The notes beneath the pieces are model-generated. The model was not told the DNA's origin and did no database searches. It saw only the letters and a list, made by a program, of their open reading frames with translations. The position numbers and the translations under genes were made by a program. A stretch of 46,623 nt of DNA from Cyclobacteriaceae bacterium. Lineage in GTDB: Bacteria; Bacteroidota; Bacteroidia; Cytophagales; Cyclobacteriaceae. Below are positions 19,024 through 29,614 of the stretch, piece by piece. The stretch is taken from contig JAKLJG010000017.1 in NCBI GenBank assembly GCA_023151255.1, positions 1 to 46,623 of the forward strand. The letters are read 5' to 3'. Numbering within the stretch: the first letter of the stretch is position 1; the number at the start of each line of letters is the position of its first letter.

Positions 19024-19638
19024 ATGTATTTTCAGTATCCGTTAGAACTCATCGGAACTTTTTTCTTTGCAATATCCGGTGCCTTGGCCATGCAGGATAA
19101 AGACCACGATTGGTTTGGTGCCGCCTTTACCGGTTTCGTAACAGCCATCGGAGGGGGTACCCTCCGCGATATCATGCTGGGCAGTTATCCGCTGGTGTGG
19201 ATTGGCGACATCAACTTTCTGTATGCGGTGCTGGTTGGGGTTGTAATGGCCATTCTTTTCCACCGGGTATTTATCAAACTACGCAGAACTTTTCTGCTGT
19301 TCGATACGTTGGGCATTGCTTTCTTCACTATTCTCGGCACAGAAAAGGCCATCGCCCTGGGTGTGCGGCCGGAGATAGCCGCCATTATGGGCATGTTTAC
19401 CGCGGTAATGGGTGGTGTTATCCGTGATACATTGACCAATGAAGTACCCGTCATCTTCCGTAAAGAAATTTATGCCACGGCCTGCCTGGCCGGTGCCATT
19501 GTTTACCTGGTGCTTGATTTGCACACTCCGCTTGAGCGTAACATCAACCTGGTGGTATCAATTGTGGTTATCATCCTTATCCGCTTGCTGGCTGTAAAGT
19601 TTAAGTTGGCGCTGCCGGGTTTCCGAAGGTCCGGCTAA
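19024..19638 (+). CDS. TRIC/UPF0126-family membrane channel
   Basis: A 204-residue inner-membrane protein of the trimeric intracellular cation channel family (formerly UPF0126, YadS-like). Two pseudo-repeats of three helices are seen, each with the GGG(T/V)xRD signature: GGGTLRDIMLG at about 40-50 and GGVIRDTLTNEVP at about 123-135. EKAIALGV lies between them. Prokaryotic members conduct monovalent cations; the physiological role here is unknown. It starts 4 bases after the PorP/SprF stop, so it is probably on the same mRNA. That pairing is likely incidental, since no functional link is known. Confidence 0.88.
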   Translation: MYFQYPLELIGTFFFAISGALAMQDKDHDWFGAAFTGFVTAIGGGTLRDIMLGSYPLVWIGDINFLYAVLVGVVMAILFHRVFIKLRRTFLLFDTLGIAFFTILGTEKAIALGVRPEIAAIMGMFTAVMGGVIRDTLTNEVPVIFRKEIYATACLAGAIVYLVLDLHTPLERNINLVVSIVVIILIRLLAVKFKLALPGFRRSG

Positions 19639-19679: not shown

Positions 19680-19712
19680 TTGTCATTTTCGTGATTTTAT
19701 CGTTTAACTTTG
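19680..19712 (+). promoter_or_regulatory. Promoter of the arginine operon (TTG - N22 - TAACTTTG)
   Basis: A -33 TTG at 19680-19682 and a full -7 match TAACTTTG at 19705-19712, 22 bases apart, within the spacing known for Bacteroidota primary sigma promoters. It predicts a start near 19718 and a leader of about 290 bases before the first enzyme gene. Confidence 0.6.
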
Positions 19713-19786
19713 TAATACTGTTTAAACTAAAACTAAAATCCGGATGCCTTTTATCTGACGTTCAACTTAAACCACTAATCAAGAAA

Positions 19787-19912
19787 TTGAAAACAACGAC
19801 CACCATTGCAGCAACTACGGTTGCTCACTACCCCAACAGAACTCTTCCGTTCTTCATCCCTGCCTGTTTGGTGTCCAGGCGTACCCGCCCTACGCGCTTC
19901 GTGCGTATTTGA
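19787..19912 (+). CDS. Putative Arg-rich leader peptide of the arginine operon
   Basis: A 41-codon frame in the leader of the arginine operon, starting with TTG 19787 behind an A-rich stretch (AATCAAGAAA). It reads KTTTTIAATTV near the start and ends RRTRPTRFVRI, so five of its last eleven codons are Arg (AGG, CGT, CGC, CGC, CGT). The stop is at 19910-19912. A terminator-like hairpin begins 26 bases later. This is the arrangement of a ribosome-sensing leader peptide: low charged tRNA-Arg would stall the ribosome in the Arg cluster. The open frame extends back to 19691, but that lies upstream of the predicted transcription start. No protein family is recognised; the call rests on codon content and location. 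Confidence 0.5.
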   Translation: MKTTTTIAATTVAHYPNRTLPFFIPACLVSRRTRPTRFVRI

Positions 19913-19920
19913 TGCATACC
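19879..19920 (+). promoter_or_regulatory. Alternative pairing segments in the arginine leader
   Basis: GCGTA (19879-19883), TACGC (19891-19895) and GCGTA (19903-19907) allow two mutually exclusive stems, because the middle segment pairs with either flank. In addition, 19901-19908 can pair with 19912-19919 around the leader stop codon, with one mismatch. All lie in or next to the Arg codons, where a stalled ribosome would block them. Confidence 0.35.
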
Positions 19921-19937
19921 CCCAACTTTTGTTGATA

Positions 19938-19987
19938 CAGGTCTGAGGTCAGGGACCTTGTGCCTGCTTTATTCAGTTTTTTATTTC
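19938..19987 (+). terminator. Terminator-like hairpin (attenuator) before arginine genes
   Basis: CAGG (19938-19941) pairs with CCTG (19963-19966), and the inner AGGTC (19946-19950) with GACCT (19954-19958). The four bases between them on each side form mostly G-U pairs, giving an almost continuous 13-bp stem with an AGG loop. A T-rich stretch follows (19967-19987, including TTTTTT). It lies inside the operon leader, after the promoter and before the first enzyme start, so it can only act as a regulated terminator or a partial one. Confidence 0.5.
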
Positions 19988-20010
19988 AGGTAATTAACTA
20001 CGAAGCACCA

Positions 20011-20763
20011 TTGGATAATCATAACATCATTGTCAGGCTGGCAACGCCTGACGACAAACATTATGCAGTAACCATAACCGATGAAATGGCCGAGTCGGCC
20101 AAAGCCCGCGGCACCGGTATTGCCAAACGCTCGCCCGAATACATTGAAAAGAAAATGGAGGAGGGTAAAGCTGTTATTGCCATTACGCCCGATGGCACCT
20201 GGGTGGGTTTTTGCTACATCGAAGCGTGGGAACACGAAAAGTATGTGGCCAATTCCGGCCTTATTGTGTCTCCGCCCTTCCGGAAAACAGGCGTGGCAAC
20301 GGCCATCAAGCGAAAGATATTTGAGCTTTCGCGCCAACGGTACCCGCAGGCCAAACTGTTTGGCCTGACTACCGGACTTGCCGTAATGAAAATAAACTCC
20401 GACCTGGGCTACGAGCCCGTTACCTATTCCGAACTTACTACCGATGAGGAGTTCTGGAAGGGCTGCCGCAGTTGCGTGAACTACGAAATCCTGATGAGCA
20501 AGGATCGGAAGAACTGCATGTGCACTGCCATGCTTTACGACCCGGCCGAAGCAGCAGCCAAAGCCTCCGTGCAACCCGTGCAGGTAGTTGTTAATTCGCA
20601 GGGTAAACTTAAACGCAAACGCAGGCGGATGTTTAAGGGGAACCTCCGGCTGTTCGAACGATGGGTAAAATTCAAACAATTTGTTTTGCTTCGTTCCCGC
20701 AGCAATGGCACCGGTACGGATGAGCCAAAGAAAAAATCCATCTTAAGTTTTTTCTTTTGGTAA
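20011..20763 (+). CDS. GNAT N-acyltransferase, probable N-acylglutamate synthase of arginine route
   Basis: Probably acylates glutamate (acetyl- or succinyl-CoA donor) to start arginine synthesis; no other synthase gene is in this otherwise near-complete operon. The GNAT fold is visible: motif A at VSPPFRKTGVATAIK (about 86-100, Arg91-x-x-Gly94-x-Ala96), then FGLTTGLAVM and the family-style NSDLGYEPV. A C-terminal Cys cluster is unusual for GNATs: C152-x2-C155 and C169-x-C171. It is followed by a strongly basic tail (KRKRRRMFKG). The frame is open to GTG 19960, but that codon lies in the attenuator stem, so TTG 20011 (250 residues) is preferred. It ends one base before argG. Confidence 0.75.
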   Translation: MDNHNIIVRLATPDDKHYAVTITDEMAESAKARGTGIAKRSPEYIEKKMEEGKAVIAITPDGTWVGFCYIEAWEHEKYVANSGLIVSPPFRKTGVATAIKRKIFELSRQRYPQAKLFGLTTGLAVMKINSDLGYEPVTYSELTTDEEFWKGCRSCVNYEILMSKDRKNCMCTAMLYDPAEAAAKASVQPVQVVVNSQGKLKRKRRRMFKGNLRLFERWVKFKQFVLLRSRSNGTGTDEPKKKSILSFFFW

Positions 20764-20764
20764 T

Positions 20765-21976
20765 ATGAAAAAGCGTGTTGTTTTGGCCTTTAGCGGTGGC
20801 CTTGATACCACCTACTGTGCAAAATACCTTGCCGAAGATCTGGGGTATGATGTACACACCCTTACGGTTAACACAGGCGGCTTTACTTCGGCCGAACTGG
20901 AACAGATTGAGAGACATGCCAACGCATTGGGTGTAGCCACGCACACAACAGTTGATGAGACGCGGAACTACTATGAAAAAGTAATCCGGTTTCTTATTTA
21001 CGGTAACGTGCTGAAAAATGGCACGTATCCATTAAGCGTAAGCGCTGAACGCATGTCGCAGGCATTGGCCGTGGCACGGTATGCCAAAGAAATAATGGCC
21101 GATGCCGTTGCCCACGGTAGCACGGGGGCCGGTAACGACCAGGTTCGGTTCGATATGGTTTTCAACATCCTCCTGCCAGGCGTTGAAGTAATTACCCCTA
21201 TTCGTGACAGAAAACTTTCGCGCGAAGAAGAGATAACCTACCTGAAGGCCAGAGGTGTTGAAATGAATTTTGAAAAGGCAAAGTACTCAATCAACAAAGG
21301 TTTATGGGGAACTTCTGTTGGAGGAAAAGAAACACTGGGCTCATTGGGCATGCTCCCCGAAGAAGCCTGGCCAACTCCGGTAACAAAATCGGGTAGTGAG
21401 GTTGTGAAACTACATTATTATCAAGGCGAGTTGACAGGCGTCAATGAAAAAGCATTTGCTCACCCTGTTGAAGCCATTACTTATTTACAAACTATTGCCG
21501 GACCGTACGGAATTGGCCGCGATATTCATGTGGGCGATACCATTATCGGCATAAAAGGCCGTGTAGGGTTTGAGGCCGCTGCCCCCGTGCTCATCATCAA
21601 AGCCCATCATGCGTTGGAGAAACACGTACTCACCAAATGGCAGCTAAGCTGGAAAGATCAGCTTGCCCAGTTTTATGGCAACTGGCTGCACGAAGGCCAG
21701 TACCTTGATCCGGTTATGCGCGATATCGAGTCCTTCCTGGTCAGTACGCAAAAACAGGTTACCGGTACAGTTACTATCCAATTGCATCCGTACCGCTACC
21801 AGGTGCTTGGTATTGAGTCGCCTTTTGATTTGATGTCGGCAAAATTCGGGAAGTATGGTGAAATGAACCTGGGCTGGACCGGTGAGGATGTTAAAGGGTT
21901 CACTAAAATCTTCGGTAACCAGGTTTCGATTTATCATCAGGTAAGAGAAGAAGCTGAAAACAAAAGCAATGGGTAA
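20765..21976 (+). CDS. argG: Argininosuccinate synthase
   Basis: Joins citrulline and aspartate using ATP to form argininosuccinate. At 403 residues it has the usual size. The PP-loop is AFSGGLDTTYCAKYL (8-22), followed by VAHGSTGAGNDQVRFD (about 117-132), the conserved citrulline/aspartate site. DRKLSREEEITYLKARG follows. Members of this Bacteroidota branch are somewhat divergent from E. coli ArgG but keep these sites. The start codon follows the acyltransferase stop by one base. The last eight bases, ATGGGTAA, also start argC, so translation of the two is likely coupled. Feedback and substrate residues look intact. Confidence 0.95.
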   Translation: MKKRVVLAFSGGLDTTYCAKYLAEDLGYDVHTLTVNTGGFTSAELEQIERHANALGVATHTTVDETRNYYEKVIRFLIYGNVLKNGTYPLSVSAERMSQALAVARYAKEIMADAVAHGSTGAGNDQVRFDMVFNILLPGVEVITPIRDRKLSREEEITYLKARGVEMNFEKAKYSINKGLWGTSVGGKETLGSLGMLPEEAWPTPVTKSGSEVVKLHYYQGELTGVNEKAFAHPVEAITYLQTIAGPYGIGRDIHVGDTIIGIKGRVGFEAAAPVLIIKAHHALEKHVLTKWQLSWKDQLAQFYGNWLHEGQYLDPVMRDIESFLVSTQKQVTGTVTIQLHPYRYQVLGIESPFDLMSAKFGKYGEMNLGWTGEDVKGFTKIFGNQVSIYHQVREEAENKSNG

Positions 21977-22946
21977 TAAGGTAAGGGTTGGAATAGTTGG
22001 CGGTGCAGGCTACACCGGTGGCGAAGCTATACGCATACTCCTTAACCACCCGGTTGCCGAAATTGTTTTTGTTCACAGCCGCAGCCACGTAGGGCAGCCG
22101 GTGAGTATGGTCCATCATGATTTGACGGGAGAAATCAACTTGAAATTTACCGGGAGTGTTTCTCACACGGTTGATGTACTCTTTCTTTGCCTGGGTCATG
22201 GCGAAAGTCGTAAATTTTTGCTCGACCATGAACTTCCGACTGACCTGAAGGTAATTGATCTGAGCAATGATTTCAGGCTGGGTGATTCGGTTAGCGGAAG
22301 AGAATTTGTTTATGGCCTGCCCGAACTGAACCGCGACAAAATAAGATCTGCGCAAAACGTAGCCAATCCCGGCTGCTTTGCCACAGCTGTACAAATTGGG
22401 TTGTTGCCACTGGCAGCACAGGGATTACTCACCGAAGTTTATGCAACAGCAATCACCGGTTCTACAGGGGCAGGCCAGCGGTTGCAGGATACCACGCATT
22501 TTAGCTGGCGGGCCAACAACATCTCGGCTTATAAAACGCTTACACACCAGCACGTTGGCGAAATCAATCGCTCGTTAAAGCAGCTTCAGCCTGCGTTCGA
22601 TGGTTCGCTGCACCTGGTACCCTGGCGCGGTGACTTTACCCGGGGCATTTTTGTGAGTTCAGTAGTTACGGTTAACAAATCTCTTACCGAAATCAAATCA
22701 CTGTTCAATGGCTACTACGCTTATCATCCGTTTGTGATTCTTGCTGATGAAATGATTAACATGAAGCAAGCAGTGAACACCAACAAGTGCTATGTTTTTC
22801 TTGAGTTGACAGGTGATAAACTGGTTGTACACTCCGCCATTGATAACCTGGTTAAAGGAGCATCAGGGCAAGCCGTGCAGAACATGAACCTGATGTTCGG
22901 ACTGGAAGAAACCGAAGGATTGAAATTGAAAACGATTGGATATTAA
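21969..22946 (+). CDS. argC: N-acetyl-gamma-glutamyl-phosphate reductase
   Basis: Reduces N-acylglutamyl phosphate to the semialdehyde with NADPH. The Rossmann opening is VGIVGGAGYTGGEAIRIL (6-23). The catalytic Cys136 is in NPGCFATAVQ, and LHLVPWRGDFTRGIF carries the conserved region around the active-site His. TGSTGAGQRL is another family motif. At 325 residues it is the type I short form. It overlaps argG by eight bases and is followed by a 54-base gap containing a G-rich repeat copy (22967-22996). In an acyl-ornithine pathway it may handle the succinyl rather than the acetyl derivative; the sequence does not settle that. Confidence 0.95.
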   Translation: MGNKVRVGIVGGAGYTGGEAIRILLNHPVAEIVFVHSRSHVGQPVSMVHHDLTGEINLKFTGSVSHTVDVLFLCLGHGESRKFLLDHELPTDLKVIDLSNDFRLGDSVSGREFVYGLPELNRDKIRSAQNVANPGCFATAVQIGLLPLAAQGLLTEVYATAITGSTGAGQRLQDTTHFSWRANNISAYKTLTHQHVGEINRSLKQLQPAFDGSLHLVPWRGDFTRGIFVSSVVTVNKSLTEIKSLFNGYYAYHPFVILADEMINMKQAVNTNKCYVFLELTGDKLVVHSAIDNLVKGASGQAVQNMNLMFGLEETEGLKLKTIGY

Positions 22947-22966
22947 AGACAAATTAAAACATCATC

Positions 22967-22996
22967 CTTCCACCGGAGAGGGGCTTGGGGCTGAGG
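22967..22996 (+). repeat. G-rich intergenic repeat element, copy 1
   Basis: Sequence of the type CCACCGGAGAGGGGCTTGGG followed by GCTGAGG occupies most of the argC-argD gap and ends 5 bases before the argD ATG. CCTTCC and GGAGAGG can form a small hairpin. A related piece lies before argB (25096-25126). It resembles the GGGGCTTGGGGTGAGGT-type words that recur between genes in Bacteroidota genomes; that comparison is from memory. Confidence 0.35.
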
Positions 22997-23000
22997 TTAT

Positions 23001-24143
23001 ATGAAACCATTTAATGTATATCCGCTTTTCGAAATCACACCAATAAAGGCCAAAGGCAGTTGGCTATGGGATGATCATGGAGATAAGTACCTCGATTTGT
23101 ACGGTGGTCATGCGGTAATTTCCATCGGGCACTCTCATCCGCACTACATAAATAGACTGGAGGAGCAACTTCGGAAAATGGGATTTTACTCTAATAGTGT
23201 ACAAAATCCATTACAGGAACAATTGGCCGAGAAACTCGGCAATATTTCGGGTTATCCGGAGTACCAGTTATTTCTTTGTAATTCAGGTGCCGAGGCGAAT
23301 GAGAATGCATTAAAAATAGCATCGTTTATTACCGATCGAAAAAAAATCATAGCCTTTCAAAAAGCCTTCCATGGCCGCACTTCCGGGGCAGTAGCAGCAA
23401 CCGACAATCCAAAAATCATGGCAGAATTTAATAAAGGTCATGAAGTGGTGTTTGTTCCGCTGAATGATGAATTTGCCTTTCTTCGGGCGTTGGATAATCA
23501 GGTTGCCGCTGTAATCATTGAAGGTATTCAGGGCGTTGGCGGTATTCATGTTCCGAATACAGATTTTTTACAACTTATATCAGCGCGTTGTAAGGCAAAC
23601 GGGTCACTACTGATTCTGGATGAAATCCAATCCGGGTACGGCCGCACCGGTAAATTCTTTGCCCACCAGCATGCCGGTATTAAACCCGATTTGGTTACCG
23701 TGGCCAAAGGCATGGGTAATGGGTTCCCGATGGGGGGCGTGCTCATACATCCGGATATCAAACCCTGGAGCGGCATGCTCGGCACCACCTTTGGCGGTAA
23801 TCACCTGGCCTGCGTTGCCGGGCTTGCCGTGCTGGACGTAATCGAAAACGAAAACCTGATGGCCAATGCAACCGTGGCAGGAAATTACCTTATCCATGAA
23901 CTGGAAGCATTGCCCATAATTACTGAAGTTAGGGGTATGGGGCTGATGATTGGATTTGACCTGCCCGATGAACATCATTCAGTTCGCCAGACTTTATTAA
24001 ATGAACACAAAATATTTACCGGTGAAGCCAAACCCAATACCATCCGGTTGCTTCCATCACTTGCACTGACAAAAGAAGAAGCCCGAATCTTTATCGAAGC
24101 ACTACAATCGTGCCTGACAACCCTTGAACCGGAATCAAAATAA
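23001..24143 (+). CDS. argD: Acetylornithine (N-acylornithine) aminotransferase
   Basis: A PLP enzyme that converts N-acylglutamate semialdehyde to N-acylornithine with glutamate as amino donor. It is a class III aminotransferase of 380 residues. SNSVQNPLQ and CNSGAEANENALK (about 94-106) form the phosphate-binding loop region, FHGRT is at about 120, and LILDEIQSGYGRTGKFFAH carries the PLP-contacting Asp. Lys236 in VAKGMGNGFPMGG is the Schiff-base lysine. TTFGGNHLAC follows. It is read directly after the G-rich element and ends 6 bases before argF'. Position in the operon sets the substrate as acylornithine rather than another omega-amino acid. Confidence 0.94.
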   Translation: MKPFNVYPLFEITPIKAKGSWLWDDHGDKYLDLYGGHAVISIGHSHPHYINRLEEQLRKMGFYSNSVQNPLQEQLAEKLGNISGYPEYQLFLCNSGAEANENALKIASFITDRKKIIAFQKAFHGRTSGAVAATDNPKIMAEFNKGHEVVFVPLNDEFAFLRALDNQVAAVIIEGIQGVGGIHVPNTDFLQLISARCKANGSLLILDEIQSGYGRTGKFFAHQHAGIKPDLVTVAKGMGNGFPMGGVLIHPDIKPWSGMLGTTFGGNHLACVAGLAVLDVIENENLMANATVAGNYLIHELEALPIITEVRGMGLMIGFDLPDEHHSVRQTLLNEHKIFTGEAKPNTIRLLPSLALTKEEARIFIEALQSCLTTLEPESK

Positions 24144-24149
24144 AATGCC

Positions 24150-25136
24150 GTGAAAAATTTTGTTTCCATAGCTGATGTTGCCGATGTTCAGTTGCTGATT
24201 GAAATGGGATTGAATTACAAAAACAACCCGTTAGCCGATCATACCCTTGGAAATGGTAAACGATTAGGCCTTGTGTTCTTAAATCCCAGTATGCGTACCC
24301 GTATCAGTACGCAGCTAGCCGCTCAGAATCTGGGCATGGAGGTCATTGTTTTCAATGTTGGGCAAGACGGCTGGTCGCTTGAGTTTGGCGATGGCGTAAT
24401 GGATGGTACCTCGGTTGAACATGTTAAAGATGCGGCCCCGGTGCTGGGTCAGTATTTTGATGTGCTCGGACTCCGCACTTTTCCTTCTTTGAAAAACCGT
24501 GATGAGGATTACAGCGAACTGGTTATCCAACAGTTTGTAAACTATGCCGGAATTCCGGTAGTAAGCCTGGAAAGCGCCACCCTGCACCCGCTTCAAAGCC
24601 TGGCCGACCTGATCACCATTACCGAAACATTCAACGAAAAAAGGAAACCAAAAGTAGTGTTAACCTGGGCGCCACACATCAAACCACTACCGCAATGTGT
24701 GGCCAACAGTTTTGCCCAGTGGATGACTGTGTGGGGCAGGGCTGAGTTCGTTGTTACGCATCCGGAAGGATATACATTGGATGAAAAGTTTACCAATGGT
24801 GCAGCCATCACCACCAACCAGGATGAGGCCCTTGCCGGAGCCGATTTTGTATATGTAAAAAACTGGAGCAGTTATACCGAGTATGGTAAAATTTTGAATA
24901 CCGACAGGTCGTGGATGCTGACCGCTGAAAAACTGAAGCTAACCAATAAGGCGCGCGTTATGCATTGCTTACCCGTGCGCAGAAACCTTGAACTGAGTGC
25001 CGAAGTACTCGATAGTCCGGCAAGTATAGTAACACAGCAGGCAGCCAACCGCGTGTGGGCTGCACAGGCCGTGCTGGCCAAAATTTTACAATGTAAGTTT
25101 AACCCCGTGAGGGGGGCAAGGGGAGTGTATGAATAA
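24150..25136 (+). CDS. argF': N-succinyl/acetylornithine carbamoyltransferase
   Basis: Transfers a carbamoyl group to N-acylornithine, giving N-acylcitrulline; this replaces ordinary ornithine carbamoyltransferase in the Bacteroidota route. The carbamoyl-phosphate loop is SMRTR (47-51), with HPLQSLADLITI mid-protein, WAPHIKPLPQ and HCLPVRRN toward the end. In Xanthomonas AOTCase, Glu92 (DTEEH) selects acetylornithine; the aligned residue here is Val89 (TSVEH). Non-Glu residues at this site are associated with succinylornithine, so succinyl specificity is inferred. The start is GTG 24150. The C-terminal tail FNPVRGARGVYE is encoded by a G-rich repeat copy, and the last eight bases overlap argB. 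Confidence 0.93.
   Translation: MKNFVSIADVADVQLLIEMGLNYKNNPLADHTLGNGKRLGLVFLNPSMRTRISTQLAAQNLGMEVIVFNVGQDGWSLEFGDGVMDGTSVEHVKDAAPVLGQYFDVLGLRTFPSLKNRDEDYSELVIQQFVNYAGIPVVSLESATLHPLQSLADLITITETFNEKRKPKVVLTWAPHIKPLPQCVANSFAQWMTVWGRAEFVVTHPEGYTLDEKFTNGAAITTNQDEALAGADFVYVKNWSSYTEYGKILNTDRSWMLTAEKLKLTNKARVMHCLPVRRNLELSAEVLDSPASIVTQQAANRVWAAQAVLAKILQCKFNPVRGARGVYE
25096..25126 (+). repeat. G-rich repeat element, copy 2, read into argF' tail
   Basis: TTTAACCCCGTGAGGGGGGC continued by AAGGGGAGTG. It is a shorter, diverged relative of the element at 22967-22996, again ending just before a start codon (argB at 25129). It is translated as the last residues of argF'. CCCC and GGGG around GTGA can form a small hairpin. 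Confidence 0.3.
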
Positions 25137-25917
25137 ACTATTCATTATAAAAATCGGAGGGAACGTGCTGGATGACCCGGCTTCGTTAACAAAATTTTTA
25201 GCTGACTTTGCTGCCATTAAAGAGCCAAAAATACTGGTGCACGGAGGAGGGAAACTGGCTACAAAAACCGGTGAGTTGTTGGGGATAAAGGCCAACATGG
25301 TCAATGGCCGCAGGATAACCGATGCGCCAACGCTGAACTTGGTCACCATGGTGTACGGTGGCCTGGTAAACAAACAACTGGTCGCACGGTTGCAGCAACT
25401 GGGCTGCAACGCACTGGGCGTAACCGGTGCCGATGGTAACCTGCTAAAAGCAACCAAACGACCGGTGGGCGAAATTGATTACGGTTTTGTTGGAGACATT
25501 CATCCAGCAGGTGTCAATTCAACTCTGCTTTATTTTCTACTGCAGCAAAATACGGTGCCGGTGTTTGCTTCGCTTACTCATGCCGATGGCGTAATGCTCA
25601 ACACCAATGCCGATACCATTGCCTCGGTATTGGCGATTGCATTAAGTAAACATTTTGATGTGCGGCTGATTTTTTGCTTTGAGAAAAAAGGCGTTTTGCG
25701 AAATATTCATGATGAAAACTCAGTTATCCGAACACTGACAACTAATTTATACCATGAACTTTTAATGCAGGGTGCGTTGGCCGATGGCATCCTGCCCAAA
25801 CTTGAAAATGCGTTTGCTGCCATTCGTTCGGGCGTGCGCGAAGTGCTGATTGGCGATGCAACGCATTTAACCAGTAATACCGGCCAGGAAACAATTGGCA
25901 CCCTGGTTATCAAATGA
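25129..25917 (+). CDS. argB: N-acetylglutamate kinase
   Basis: Phosphorylates N-acylglutamate on the gamma carboxyl with ATP. At 262 residues it has the amino acid kinase fold: IKIGGNVLDDP (6-16), LVHGGGKLATKTG (about 36-48), NGRRITDAPTLNLV for the substrate, and GVTGADGNLLKA. It lacks the extra N-terminal helix that makes many NAGKs arginine-sensitive and is close in length to the insensitive E. coli enzyme. Feedback by arginine on this step is therefore unlikely, which would put weight on control in the operon leader. The ATG lies in the eight-base overlap ATGAATAA with argF'; the stop overlaps the next gene by four bases. Confidence 0.94.
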   Translation: MNKLFIIKIGGNVLDDPASLTKFLADFAAIKEPKILVHGGGKLATKTGELLGIKANMVNGRRITDAPTLNLVTMVYGGLVNKQLVARLQQLGCNALGVTGADGNLLKATKRPVGEIDYGFVGDIHPAGVNSTLLYFLLQQNTVPVFASLTHADGVMLNTNADTIASVLAIALSKHFDVRLIFCFEKKGVLRNIHDENSVIRTLTTNLYHELLMQGALADGILPKLENAFAAIRSGVREVLIGDATHLTSNTGQETIGTLVIK

Positions 25918-27020
25918 TACTTAACACCGATACCGAAATTGCCGTGAACAAGGCCGTGCAGTTGTTAAAGCAACTGATTTCAACCCCGTCTTTCAGTCGG
26001 GAAGAAGCCGGTACGGCCGATGTTATTTATCATTACTTGAAAGAGGAAGGCGTGGAAGTTAATCGATCAGGTAATAATGTGTGGGCTGTAAACAAATTTT
26101 ATAGCAATTCAAGGCCAACCATCCTGCTCAATTCTCATCACGATACCGTTAAACCGAACTCCGGCTACACACGCGATCCGTTTAAGCCTGAGATGATTGA
26201 TGGTAAACTGTACGGATTGGGCAGCAACGATGCCGGGGGCGCATTAACCACCATGATTGAAGCCTTTCTGCATTACTATCGGCAGCCCGATCTGAAGGTT
26301 AATCTAGTACTTGCAGCAACTGCCGAGGAAGAGATTACCGGACTTGGCGGCATTGAAAGCATCTGGTCTTTGCTTCCGCATATTGATTTTGCTATTGTGG
26401 GTGAACCCACATTATGTAAAATGGCCATAGCCGAAAAAGGATTATTGGTACTGGATTGTGTTGCCAAAGGTAAGGCCGGCCATGCAGCACGCGATGAAGG
26501 CGATAATGCCATTTATAAGGCCTTGAAGGATATTGAGTGGTTCAGAACGTTCCAGTTTCCGCGTATTTCGCCAACCCTGGGCCCGGTTAAAATGACGGTT
26601 ACGCTTATTGAAGCCGGTAAGCAACACAACGTGGTGCCGGCAGAATGCCGGTTTACGGTTGATGTGCGTGTAACGGACGCCTACACCCTCGATGAAGTGC
26701 TTGCAGAAATTTCAAAACATGTTTTGTGCGAAATAAAACCCCGATCAGTGCGGTTAAAACCTTCCGGCATTGAGCCGGGCCATCCGCTGGTTAAAGCTGC
26801 GATGGCGCTGGGTATTCAAACCTATGGCTCGCCTACCACGTCTGACCAGGCGTTGATTCCGGTGCCGTCAGTGAAAATCGGACCGGGCGATTCGGCCCGC
26901 TCGCACATGGCGGATGAATTTATTTATGTGGATGAGATTAAAGAAGGTATTGCCATGTATATTCGATTACTAAATCAATGTTCAACATTGTTGCCCGCAC
27001 CGGTAGCAGGCAACCGGTAA
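25914..27020 (+). CDS. argE: M20-family N-acylcitrulline/ornithine deacylase (ArgE-like)
   Basis: A zinc peptidase-family enzyme expected to remove the acyl group from N-acylcitrulline, since carbamoylation here precedes deacylation. Metal-site motifs are in order: NSHHDTVKP (first His and catalytic Asp, about 74-82), GLGSNDAGG (bridging Asp, about 102-110), and ATAEEEITGLGG (catalytic Glu pair). The central dimerisation domain begins near KGLLVLDCVAKGKAGHAARD. A C-terminal His is in RSHMADEF. At 368 residues it is full length. It overlaps argB by four bases (ATGA). Exact acyl preference (succinyl or acetyl) cannot be read directly. argH starts 10 bases after its stop. Confidence 0.9.
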   Translation: MILNTDTEIAVNKAVQLLKQLISTPSFSREEAGTADVIYHYLKEEGVEVNRSGNNVWAVNKFYSNSRPTILLNSHHDTVKPNSGYTRDPFKPEMIDGKLYGLGSNDAGGALTTMIEAFLHYYRQPDLKVNLVLAATAEEEITGLGGIESIWSLLPHIDFAIVGEPTLCKMAIAEKGLLVLDCVAKGKAGHAARDEGDNAIYKALKDIEWFRTFQFPRISPTLGPVKMTVTLIEAGKQHNVVPAECRFTVDVRVTDAYTLDEVLAEISKHVLCEIKPRSVRLKPSGIEPGHPLVKAAMALGIQTYGSPTTSDQALIPVPSVKIGPGDSARSHMADEFIYVDEIKEGIAMYIRLLNQCSTLLPAPVAGNR

Positions 27021-27030
27021 CCAGTTTTTC

Positions 27031-28365
27031 ATGAGTAAGCTTTGGAGAAAAGACAAAGATTCACTGAAATCAGTAGAGGCCTTTACCATAGGTAACGACC
27101 GTGTGTTGGATATGCAACTTGCTGCATTTGATGTACTGGGGTCGCTGGCACATATCCGCATGCTTGAATCCATCGCTCTGCTCACCAACGAGGAATTAAG
27201 AAAACTATCGGATGAACTAAAGCTCATCTATGAGCGCATTAACAGGTGTGAACTAAGAATTGAAGAAGGCACCGAAGATATTCATTCGCAAATAGAAATT
27301 GAATTAACCCGTAAGCTGGGCGACATCGGTAAAAAAATACACAGCGGCCGATCGCGTAACGACCAGGTGCTGGTTGATATTAAGATGTTTGTGCGGTTTG
27401 AGATTGAACAGGTTGTTACCGAAGCAAAAAAGCTTTTTGATGTGTTGATAACTAAGAGTGAAAAGCACAAGGCCGACCTCCTTCCCGGCTACACCCATTT
27501 TCAACCGGCCATGCCCTCTTCATTCGGGTTGTGGTTTAGTGCCTACGCTGAAAGTTTGGTAGATGACCTGGTGATGCTGGAGGCCGCCTACCGGGTGGTA
27601 AACAAAAATCCGCTGGGTTCGGCTGCAGGATACGGTTCATCGTTTCCGCTAAAGCGGAAGATGACAACCCAACTACTCGGCTTTGATGATTTGAATTACA
27701 ATGTGGTTTATGCCCAAATGGGCCGGGGCAAAACCGAGCGCATCGTTGCCGGTGCGATGGCAGGTGTAGCCGCAACCCTGGGCAAGCTGGCTGCCGATGC
27801 CATTGTGTTGATGAATCCGAACTTTGGATTCATCAGCTTTCCGGATGAACTTACTACCGGATCCAGTATCATGCCGCACAAAAAAAATCCCGATGTGTTT
27901 GAAATTATACGGGCGCGGTGTAATCAGTTACAAGCTTTACCCACTACAATTACCGCGATTACAACCAATCTTTCTTCCGGTTACCACCGTGATTACCAAT
28001 TGCTTAAAGAGATGCTGTTTCCGGCCATTCAACACCTGAAGGAATGCCTGCAGATGATGTGCCTGATGATTTCCGAATGTCGGGTAAAGGAAAATATTCT
28101 GGATGATGAGCGATACGCACACCTCTTCAGTGTGGAAGAAGTAAACAAACTTGTACTTCACGGGGTGCCGTTTCGGGATGCGTACAAAAAAGTTGGGCAG
28201 GATATTGAAAAAGGCACTTATCGGCCTGAACGCAAGCTCAGTCATACGCACGAAGGGAGCATCGGTAATTTATGCCTTCCGGAAATTCAGCGGATGATGG
28301 AGGATGTGCTGAATCGGTTTAATTTTGCCGCGGTCCATCGGGCTTATGAAAAGCTGCTGGACTGA
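27031..28365 (+). CDS. argH: Argininosuccinate lyase
   Basis: Splits argininosuccinate into arginine and fumarate, the last step. The fumarase/aspartase fold is clear: SGRSRNDQVLVD (about 107-118), GYTHFQPAMPSSFGLW (about 153-168), and the signature GSSIMPHKKNPD (about 278-289) with the flexible catalytic loop Ser. At 444 residues it is normal in length. It starts 10 bases after the deacylase and closes the biosynthetic set in this operon. With the upstream genes, every step from glutamate to arginine except carbamoyl phosphate supply is covered in one transcription unit. Confidence 0.96.
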   Translation: MSKLWRKDKDSLKSVEAFTIGNDRVLDMQLAAFDVLGSLAHIRMLESIALLTNEELRKLSDELKLIYERINRCELRIEEGTEDIHSQIEIELTRKLGDIGKKIHSGRSRNDQVLVDIKMFVRFEIEQVVTEAKKLFDVLITKSEKHKADLLPGYTHFQPAMPSSFGLWFSAYAESLVDDLVMLEAAYRVVNKNPLGSAAGYGSSFPLKRKMTTQLLGFDDLNYNVVYAQMGRGKTERIVAGAMAGVAATLGKLAADAIVLMNPNFGFISFPDELTTGSSIMPHKKNPDVFEIIRARCNQLQALPTTITAITTNLSSGYHRDYQLLKEMLFPAIQHLKECLQMMCLMISECRVKENILDDERYAHLFSVEEVNKLVLHGVPFRDAYKKVGQDIEKGTYRPERKLSHTHEGSIGNLCLPEIQRMMEDVLNRFNFAAVHRAYEKLLD

Positions 28366-28372
28366 AATTACC

Positions 28373-29614
28373 ATGCAACCCCAGGAAATACTTTACCTCA
28401 TCATCGGCATCATTTCCATAAGCTTTCTGTTCGACCAGGTGTTGGACTACCTCAACCTGAAAGCCATGCGCACCAAGGTACCCGATGAAGTGGCCTTGTT
28501 TTATGATACAGAAAAATACGCGCGTGCACAGGCTTACCATCGCGAACTCACCCGCTTTGGTTTCCTGACCTCTTCATTCAGCTTTGTGCTTTCAATGGCC
28601 ATGCTCCTGCTGGGCGGCTTTGGGTGGATTGACGGGTTGTTGCGCACGGTAACCGACAATACCGTTGTACTGGCTTTACTTTTTTTTGCGGTAATTGGTG
28701 TTGCTTCTGACTGGCTTACCCTTCCTTTTCAGTGGTACAGCACCTTTGTTATTGAAGAGAAATACGGGTTCAACAAAACAACGCTTAAAACTTTTATAAC
28801 CGATAAACTGAAGGGTTATGTTTTAGGTGCGCTTATCGGGGGAAGTCTTCTTTCGGCATTACTTTACCTGATCGAAACACTGGGTGAACAATTCTGGATT
28901 TGGTTTGCGGTTATTGCTGCACTGTTTATGTTATTCATGAACATGTTTTATGCTTCGCTCATCGTGCCGCTGTTTAATAAACTTACTCCGCTTCCGGAAG
29001 GCGAACTTCGTTCTGCAATTGAAGCCTTTTCGAAGAAAATCAATTTTCCGATAACCAACGTGTTTGTTATTGACGGCTCGAAACGTTCGAAAAAGGCAAA
29101 TGCATTTTTTTCAGGCATCGGTCGTAAGAAAAAGATTGTTTTGTACGATACCTTGATAGCCAACCATACTACCGATGAACTGGTGGCTGTGCTGGCGCAC
29201 GAAGTAGGGCATTACAAAAAGAGGCACATCATCTGGAGTTATGTGTTCTCCGTTGTTCAGGTTGGTTTTACCCTGTTTATTCTTTCGCTATTGGTGTTTA
29301 ATGAGCATGTGTCGCTGGCTCTGGGGGGCAGCCAGTTGGCTGTCCATCTCAACCTGCTGGCCTTTACTATCCTGTTTTCACCAATTTCTGGTATTACTGG
29401 TTTGCTTATGAATATGTACAGCCGCAAAAACGAATATGAAGCCGATGCCTTTGCCAAAGAAACCTTTAATGGCGAAGCGCTTGCTTCAGCGCTGAAAAAA
29501 CTTTCGGTTGATAACCTGTCCAATCTGTATCCGCATCCGGCATACGTTTTCTTTCATTACTCGCATCCGCCTTTGTTAAAAAGACTGGCGAAGATTGCAC
29601 CCAACAATGCCTAA
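28373..29614 (+). CDS. M48-family membrane zinc metallopeptidase (Ste24-like)
   Basis: An integral membrane protease of the M48 family, 413 residues, closer to the CAAX-protease (Ste24) layout than to HtpX because it has a long N-terminal membrane region. The zinc site is HEVGHYKK (His276, Glu277, His280), and the third ligand Glu is in NEYEADAFA. Several membrane segments precede and follow it. Such enzymes in bacteria are linked to membrane protein quality control; no substrate is known. The frame opens at 28325 inside argH; ATG 28373 is chosen, 7 bases after the argH stop, giving the expected N-terminus MQPQEILYLI. It is likely the last gene of the arginine transcript. Confidence 0.92.
   Translation: MQPQEILYLIIGIISISFLFDQVLDYLNLKAMRTKVPDEVALFYDTEKYARAQAYHRELTRFGFLTSSFSFVLSMAMLLLGGFGWIDGLLRTVTDNTVVLALLFFAVIGVASDWLTLPFQWYSTFVIEEKYGFNKTTLKTFITDKLKGYVLGALIGGSLLSALLYLIETLGEQFWIWFAVIAALFMLFMNMFYASLIVPLFNKLTPLPEGELRSAIEAFSKKINFPITNVFVIDGSKRSKKANAFFSGIGRKKKIVLYDTLIANHTTDELVAVLAHEVGHYKKRHIIWSYVFSVVQVGFTLFILSLLVFNEHVSLALGGSQLAVHLNLLAFTILFSPISGITGLLMNMYSRKNEYEADAFAKETFNGEALASALKKLSVDNLSNLYPHPAYVFFHYSHPPLLKRLAKIAPNNA

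Follow-up and report, generated by a model that had tools for sequence, protein, structure and literature searches.

In the orf34 (speFL)/speF system of Salmonella, rare Arg codons within a short ORF are read by the ribosome (PMC6386406), and in Staphylococcus aureus the rare Arg codons of the leader peptide rbfL sense arginine limitation (PMC13009471), as described in the available portions of the two papers. For Bacteroidota, the regions ahead of amino-acid operons in Flavobacterium psychrophilum are reported to hold strong clues for attenuation by leader peptides (PMC9723704), and short ORFs are mentioned for long 5′ UTRs of Bacteroides thetaiotaomicron (PMC7366714). A Bacteroid-trp motif is listed in PMC2864571, and an unrelated uORF motif with Arg-Leu-Arg appears in PMC8632094, both seen in excerpt; the main text of PMC2965389, in a term search, contains no arginine, argG, or Bacteroides. 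Among the titles and abstract openings listed from the arginine-leader, attenuation, and Bacteroidota literature, none describes an arginine-operon leader of the kind reported here. Rfam gives no match at gathering score for the window and 20 loci, and it also missed the his and trp leaders introduced below (7 loci, three his loci among them).

The window—the whole stretch of 46,623 nucleotides of DNA analyzed—belongs to a Cyclobacteriaceae genome (G000) of 3.17 Mb. The C-terminal domain of the arginine repressor ArgR (PF02863) is found in 0 of 59 genomes, a set made up of the genome with the window and of relatives at the genus, family, and order levels; the same search, confined to this domain, is positive in 8 of 14 control genomes, one of them a Bacteroides.

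The arginine operon and its leader

The arginine operon of the window is separated from a predicted membrane protein gene (19024–19638, Pfam Gly_transporter) by a gap of 372 bases, which contains a promoter and two short ORFs:

19680–19712, + strand, Bacteroidota-type promoter: TTG at 19680–19682 and TAACTTTG at 19705–19712, 22 nt between
19744–19758, + strand, four-codon ORF ATG CCT TTT ATC TGA (MPFI-stop), from clade comparison
19787–19912, + strand, Arg leader ORF of 41 codons with TTG start and TGA stop: LKTTTTIAATTVAHYPNRTLPFFIPACLVSRRTRPTRFVRI-stop
19877–19906, + strand, Arg cluster AGG CGT. CGC.. CGC.. CGT, from codon positions
20011–20763, + strand, GNAT acetyltransferase, first gene of the operon, by homology
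20765–28365, + strand, argG, argC, argD, N-acetyl/succinylornithine-type carbamoyltransferase, argB, argE-like M20 peptidase, and argH, by best NCBIfam matches

The promoter call is based on its boxes, which we take to be of the Bacteroidota type; the −7 box is retained in the alignment of the window's clade as judged by eye, and a generic sigma-70 scan is not informative at the arg locus. The GNAT start is most likely TTG 20011, since this codon aligns with the ATG and TTG starts of relatives. Among the downstream genes, argC, argB, and argH exceed the curated NCBIfam cut-off; argG, argD, the carbamoyltransferase, and the argE-like gene stay below it. An ORF at 28325–29614, which matches HtpX proteases weakly, overlaps the listed argH at its end.

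The leader carries five Arg residues within its last 11 codons: AGG 19877, CGT 19880, CGC 19886, CGC 19895, and CGT 19904. All elements that the first-pass annotation had placed before the first enzyme gene—promoter, TTG frame, Arg cluster, and a stem with a T-rich tail—are present.

Conservation of the leader frame

The leader frame and its Arg-rich end occur in 16/16 other genomes of the same genus, and a search of the 17 genus genomes for a second copy of the leader found none: every match with E<0.01 lies at the arg locus. Relatives lacking the frame or the hairpin had been named beforehand as the observation that would speak against a leader; looked for within the genus, they bring no refutation. 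One-base codon differences, counted pairwise and hence not independent among equal-length pairs from a set of 16 leaders (14 from the genus, two from sister genera), are 541 synonymous versus 436 nonsynonymous in the true frame; the other two frames feature synonymous-to-nonsynonymous counts of 154:631 and 227:605. Pro36, Phe39, and Ile42 are retained with synonymous changes inside the clade. Leaders of the window's clade begin with TTG; among further relatives, ATG, GTG, and TTG interchange at the aligned start as judged by eye. The leader looks translated on these sequence comparisons, with selection apparently acting on the frame at the codon level, and the frame-specific synonymous substitution bears out the TTG-started frame of 41 codons with five Arg in the last eleven that had been annotated.

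Distribution among relatives and use of Arg codons

GNAT is found in 47 of 59 relatives, in 211 of 291 genomes of the order—for which the upstream regions were read in part only—and in 61 of 148 genomes of the phylum. The 194 loci reduce to 190, since L071 and L112 have no match in the fetched stretch and L019 and L131 come without upstream DNA; removal of five N-containing, short, or duplicate regions leaves 185. The loci are related, and their counts are not independent. No residue accumulates at the C-termini of upstream ORFs as strongly as Arg does: its best-ORF mean over the last 14 codons of the 185 regions is 3.30, compared with 2.01 for Phe as the next residue and 1.34 for Arg on the reverse strand. 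At least three Arg in the last 14 codons are featured by 139/185 regions versus 20/185 on the reverse strand; with the same Arg criterion applied to a slightly tighter stretch, 138/185 pass and 47/185 fail. Taken singly against 100 dinucleotide shuffles, 95 of the 185 loci reach p≤0.05 and 90 do not. Among the loci that fall short, L021, L042, L055, and L078 have no upstream ORF with more than one Arg at its end. The upstream alignment across relatives that had been proposed as a check thus yields a conserved short frame with Arg codons at the same operon in 138/185 regions, and the observation of an Arg leader is correct and reaches wider than the earlier reader could see.

The leader endings are clade-specific: RPTRFVRI in the window's genus; RRPRI in Chitinophaga; RRGF or RRGC in Sediminibacterium; RRFRNSFRA or RRYRFFFRV in Algoriphagus-like genomes; and RQNYTPRI in some Pedobacter. 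Between clades, the leaders share mainly the Arg positions, and the rest of the peptide differs. A phylum-wide draw of 26 loci, judged by eye, contains TRRRP ends in L260 and L266 and RRPYMPRA in L249 and L253; no such end is seen in L245, L251, L255–L257, and L263–L265, among others. L174, a MAG labeled Ignavibacteria, and L244, a genome in the phylum but outside the class, have an identical leader (LKTQTTRF...RITRI-stop) close to that of the window's clade, and are possibly one organism.

The less-used Arg codons AGG and CGA are enriched in the leaders compared with the start of GNAT: AGG (198) and CGA (139) account for 337 of 528 leader Arg codons, and for 156 (94 AGG and 62 CGA) of 797 Arg codons within the first 200 codons of GNAT. 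Part of the AGG excess may reflect a need for base pairing, as this codon is located in hairpin arms.

TnaC, SpeFL, and the fungal arginine attenuator peptide are models for an arginine-dependent arrest peptide, in which free arginine instead of tRNA charging would stall the ribosome at the R-I-stop end. The penultimate residue is indeed Arg in 92/138 leaders, with Ile as the last residue in 47, and the synonymous retention of Pro36, Phe39, and Ile42 in the clade also fits such a peptide; however, the remaining peptide varies between clades without any conserved family-wide sequence, and several less-used Arg codons suit tRNA sensing, which makes this explanation quite improbable. To our knowledge, known arrest peptides are not that variable in sequence.

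The four-codon ORF upstream of the leader

In 26/27 loci of the window's clade, a four-codon ATG ORF ends 17 to 29 nt before the leader start; shuffled regions carry such an ORF in 3.4%. Its third codon is TTT in 25/26, and its stop codons exchange (TGA in 11, TAA in 11, and TAG in four), which argues for translation. A frameshift joining this ORF to the leader was discarded: the frame relation varies between species. In the window's clade, the four-codon ORF may load ribosomes near the 5′ end, followed by reinitiation at the leader TTG. Bacteroidota rely little on Shine–Dalgarno pairing. Genome statistics that cover Bacteroidetes among others have been used to argue for reinitiation at leader genes (PMC4833913).

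Hairpins of the window's clade

The leader and the sequence following its stop codon fold into a series of hairpins:

19811–19824, + strand, hairpin a inside the ORF, GCAACTACGGTTGC, by folding, with compensatory versions seen by eye in the alignment
19839–19852, + strand, hairpin b inside the ORF, by folding
19862–19880, + strand, hairpin c, 3′ arm over the first Arg codons, by eye
19891–19907, + strand, hairpin d over the last codons, TACGCGC-TTC-GTGCGTA, by folding
19923–19934, + strand, small hairpin A′ past the leader stop, by folding
19938–19966, + strand, hairpin B, candidate weak terminator stem, conserved in position and covarying, by clade tally
19967–19982, + strand, T-rich tail CTTTATTCAGTTTTTT, from the sequence

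Three segments inside the Arg cluster had been reported to pair in mutually exclusive ways, and they are recovered as hairpin c, hairpin d, and a weaker pairing of the 3′ arm of d with the sequence past the stop. The stem claimed ahead of the first gene is likewise found, at 19938–19966 with 12 bp and one mismatch, followed by CTTTATTCAGTTTTTT.

The stretch past the stop is organized in the window's clade as a row of the hairpins A′, B, and C. Hairpin B has 9 to 13 pairs in 26/26 clade loci, and each of the eight apical positions tallied features at least two Watson–Crick pair types; the covariation was tallied from the longest hairpin in each sequence's own fold, a procedure that leans toward pairing. 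The compensatory changes that had been proposed as a check on the large hairpin are thereby seen as covariation across the 26 loci. The loop of B is AAG, CAG, TAG, or AGG in 22/26. RNAalifold on a MAFFT alignment of the window's clade returns no structure.

Folding energies relative to shuffles correspond to z values of −2.47 for 19700–20010, −2.49 for 19877–19987, −0.72 for 19912–19990, and −1.87 for 19935–19990. The window's energy alone is unremarkable to moderate, and the case for hairpin B comes from covariation. The 60 nt following the stop have a mean z of −1.94 in the window's clade (22 loci) and −1.09 overall (138 loci), compared with −0.47 for the stretch 60 to 120 nt before the leader end. 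Two further pairings were rejected by eye: that of the 5′ arm of hairpin c with the loop of B, which relatives do not keep, and that of the first Arg codons with the 3′ arm of B, which is absent in the more distant clade members looked at.

RNA elements in other families

Other families feature a different hairpin after the leader, P2, with stem ends CC..GG and a YAYGY loop. The pattern occurs in 46/190 regions, in 2/190 on the reverse strand, and zero to two times in ten single-base shuffles. After dropping two off-motif matches and one duplicate, 43 copies were aligned, and compensatory changes are found at five of seven pairs. In L035, L041, L084, L172, and others, the CC-YAYGY-GG-tipped P2 with its freely covarying stem lies 47 to 172 nt before GNAT. 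A P2 model search of 19 genomes gives one match with E<1e-5 in 14 of them: 13 of these matches lie beside GNAT, the fourteenth being in G322. The model included 12 of the 14 matched loci (G036 and G147 stand outside), and arg-specificity of P2 is not shown by this search alone. In the remaining five genomes, the window's own included, the best P2 model E is 0.0128 or worse. Mimicry of the anticodon loop of tRNA-Arg(ACG) by P2, compared with what we take to be that loop, was discarded: U replaces C at the key position in approximately one-third of the loops.

In Sediminibacterium-like loci, the leader stop codon lies inside an 8-bp helix in 24/25, a count from a pattern that fixes most letters and in which one of the eight pairs varies. 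L128, L140, L142, L149, and their kin carry a very strongly conserved CTGATAGGACGAGCAA..TTGCCCCTATCAGTGRAAA with the stop codon in the stem; L142 has no Rfam match. The z value of +0.82 for the 60 nt after the stop of these loci is explained by the helix starting before the stop.

The conserved RNA could in principle be an arginine riboswitch or a protein-binding element that overlaps the short ORF, the Arg codons then being incidental. Conserved loops (AAG, CAG, TAG, or AGG in 22/26 for B; YAYGY in P2) and the strong conservation of the post-stop sequence in Sediminibacterium-like loci would suit such an element. Arg clusters, however, persist while the RNA elements differ between clades, selection on the leader is seen at the codon level, and Rfam gives no match—although it misses the his and trp leaders too. 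We regard this explanation as highly improbable.

Terminator, antiterminator, and the his and trp leaders

The his and trp operons of the window's genome serve as references. Upstream of hisG on contig 40 (L226) stands a textbook His leader, MTNRKSINNHHHHHVNTMLRGRFMF (HHHHH), which features a strong GC-rich stem, a T tract, and a computed antiterminator; His-rich leaders are also present in the five relatives read. The his leader is located upstream of hisG in 6/6 genomes, four of which were run in the switch test described below (the window's genome and three relatives). Upstream of trpE on contig 2 (L272) stands a Trp leader, MKGITNTAWWWHISGFDM (WWW), with a strong GC-rich terminator stem and a T tract; its stop-codon region is complementary to the 5′ arm of the terminator as judged by eye, and WWW leaders are also present in the three relatives read. 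Near trpE of a genome of the same genus, a Bacteroidales small SRP RNA is located at 654–756 of L271 on the − strand. No clear regulatory-codon leader is seen upstream of the leuA, ilvD, and homoserine dehydrogenase genes. G000 and G014 have no IlvD match and weak LeuA matches, G011 and G031 have both, and the species pair of G000 and G014 may have lost branched-chain amino-acid synthesis.

Textbook transcription attenuation would have stem B or C act as an intrinsic terminator, with a mutually exclusive antiterminator forming upon stalling at the Arg codons, as the his and trp leaders of the same genome exemplify. Of 22 loci of the window's clade, 15, the window included, have a hairpin with a T tract within 130 nt before GNAT that outscores 11 or more of its 12 shuffles. 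The close sibling L002 has no good hairpin–T tract in this shuffle test. Elsewhere, the same test is passed by 5/24, 4/13, 4/25, 0/11, and 24/90 loci, where approximately 15% are expected by chance. The groups used in this test and in the stability, start-accessibility, and composition counts (g1, algo, chit, sedi, and pedo) were assigned by eye, with near-duplicates and some members (e.g., L004, L006, L007, L015, and L115 of the window's genus) counted under "other." Leaders are still present outside the window's clade, and intrinsic terminators are enriched there little or not at all. On a scale of the d'Aubenton-Carafa type, for which we assumed the constants, stem B with its tail scores −13 in the window and −20 and −10 in the two closest siblings; the his terminator of the same genome, scored with the same assumed constants, reaches +20 or +46 depending on the stem cut.

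The switch test computes how far the 5′ arm of the terminator is sequestered in a transcript that ends after this arm and has the ribosome footprint masked. Every Arg codon and the stop were taken as ribosome positions, both for full and for cut transcripts; only the cut version was used because the full-length version missed the his switch too. In 4/4 genomes, sequestration of the his 5′ arm amounts to 0.76–0.90 when the ribosome occupies the His cluster and to 0.49–0.55 when it is at the stop; for two isolated His codons of L229 that lie outside its cluster, the values are 0.64 and 0.54. The trp control switches in only 2/4, so the test can miss real attenuators. On average, the 5′ arm of B does not switch as the ribosome moves: stalled minus stop has a mean of −0.025 over 26 loci of the clade, with one locus above +0.15 and three below −0.15; the same holds for the 5′ arm of C in 25 loci (mean −0.015; four above +0.15 and three below −0.15).

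The first-pass annotation had admitted the lack of an antiterminator partner as its weak point, and this weak point is genuine: sequestration of the B arm is on average independent of ribosome position in the 26 loci. Its Proteobacteria-type attenuation is supported as to the translated, conserved Arg-codon leader before the arg operon and unsupported as to a control logic shared with the his and trp operons. Weighing the terminator-like hairpins of the clade against the low scores of B, the sibling L002, and arms that do not switch where his switches in 4/4, attenuation of the textbook type is unlikely to operate here.

Sequestration of the GNAT start codon was rejected as an output as well: its accessibility does not vary with where the ribosome stands (the difference averages 0.007 over 138 loci), with one locus above +0.15 and one below −0.15. 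A position-dependent switch is found neither at the terminator arms nor at the GNAT start, which counts against the sensor model proposed below.

Between the leader stop and GNAT, C exceeds G in 129/138 loci, compared with 91/138 upstream of the leader and 8/100 at the GNAT start. This C-over-G bias would suit Rho; composition alone proves nothing.

Proposed mechanism

Arginine sensing by the leader is strongly suggested by its codon content and conservation. It is quite likely, judging from these sequence features, that the leader is a ribosome-read arginine sensor, namely a leader that senses Arg-tRNA and is accompanied by clade-specific conserved hairpins. Scarce charged tRNA-Arg would cause the ribosome to stall in the Arg cluster, and plentiful arginine would let it reach the leader stop and leave. 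These two ribosome outcomes would set the extent or level of operon expression, with high expression at low arginine—a direction we infer from the pathway. Arg codons placed directly ahead of the stop, together with hairpins that start at it or shortly behind it, suggest that clearing of the leader end by the ribosome matters.

In the window's clade, a possible read-out is a weak terminator formed by hairpins B and C and the T-rich tail. The coupling of ribosome position to this candidate terminator is not, as far as folding tells, made by a classic antiterminator. Candidate couplings are Rho-dependent termination in the C-over-G-biased leader, a factor reading the conserved hairpin loops, and a ribosome on the last Arg codons that would directly block the helix around the leader stop. 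Of the earlier interpretation, the sensing is probably right and the read-out unproven or wrong.

A wider model is offered tentatively, at rather below even weight: arginine leaders throughout the phylum Bacteroidota would sense arginyl-tRNA by stalling, and their read-out would be neither an antiterminator nor start-codon sequestration; instead, clade-specific hairpins around or after the stop would be read by Rho, RNA polymerase, a nuclease, or an RNA-binding protein, with the leader of the window's clade fed by the four-codon ORF via reinitiation. An arginine leader of the kind described here would account for the control of arginine synthesis in Bacteroidota groups without ArgR. Through the conserved hairpins and the four-codon ORF, the coupling of leader translation to output becomes directly testable.

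Comparison with known systems

The arg leader resembles orf34 of Salmonella in being a short ORF with rare Arg codons, and speF is controlled through Rho and RNA structure without an intrinsic terminator, according to the portion of the paper available (PMC6386406). The difference is that orf34 controls an ornithine decarboxylase and belongs to Gammaproteobacteria; no resemblance of its peptide, as given in that portion, to the arg leader is seen. With S. aureus rbfL, as excerpted, it shares the use of leader-peptide Arg codons as an arginine sensor, whereas rbfL extends over the ribosome-binding site that follows it and, at low arginine, represses a biofilm regulator (PMC13009471). The hints from Flavobacterium psychrophilum come from the same phylum, Bacteroidota, but the accessible text names no arginine leader (PMC9723704).

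The his and trp attenuators share with the arg leader the general layout: a translated short leader with codons for the operon product, followed by hairpins before the first gene. In contrast to them, the arg leader features no detectable antiterminator switch, and its intrinsic terminator is weak or absent; the his leader of the same genome has both switch and terminator. A single genome offers a clean comparison: its his and trp leaders conform to the textbook, and its arg leader does not.
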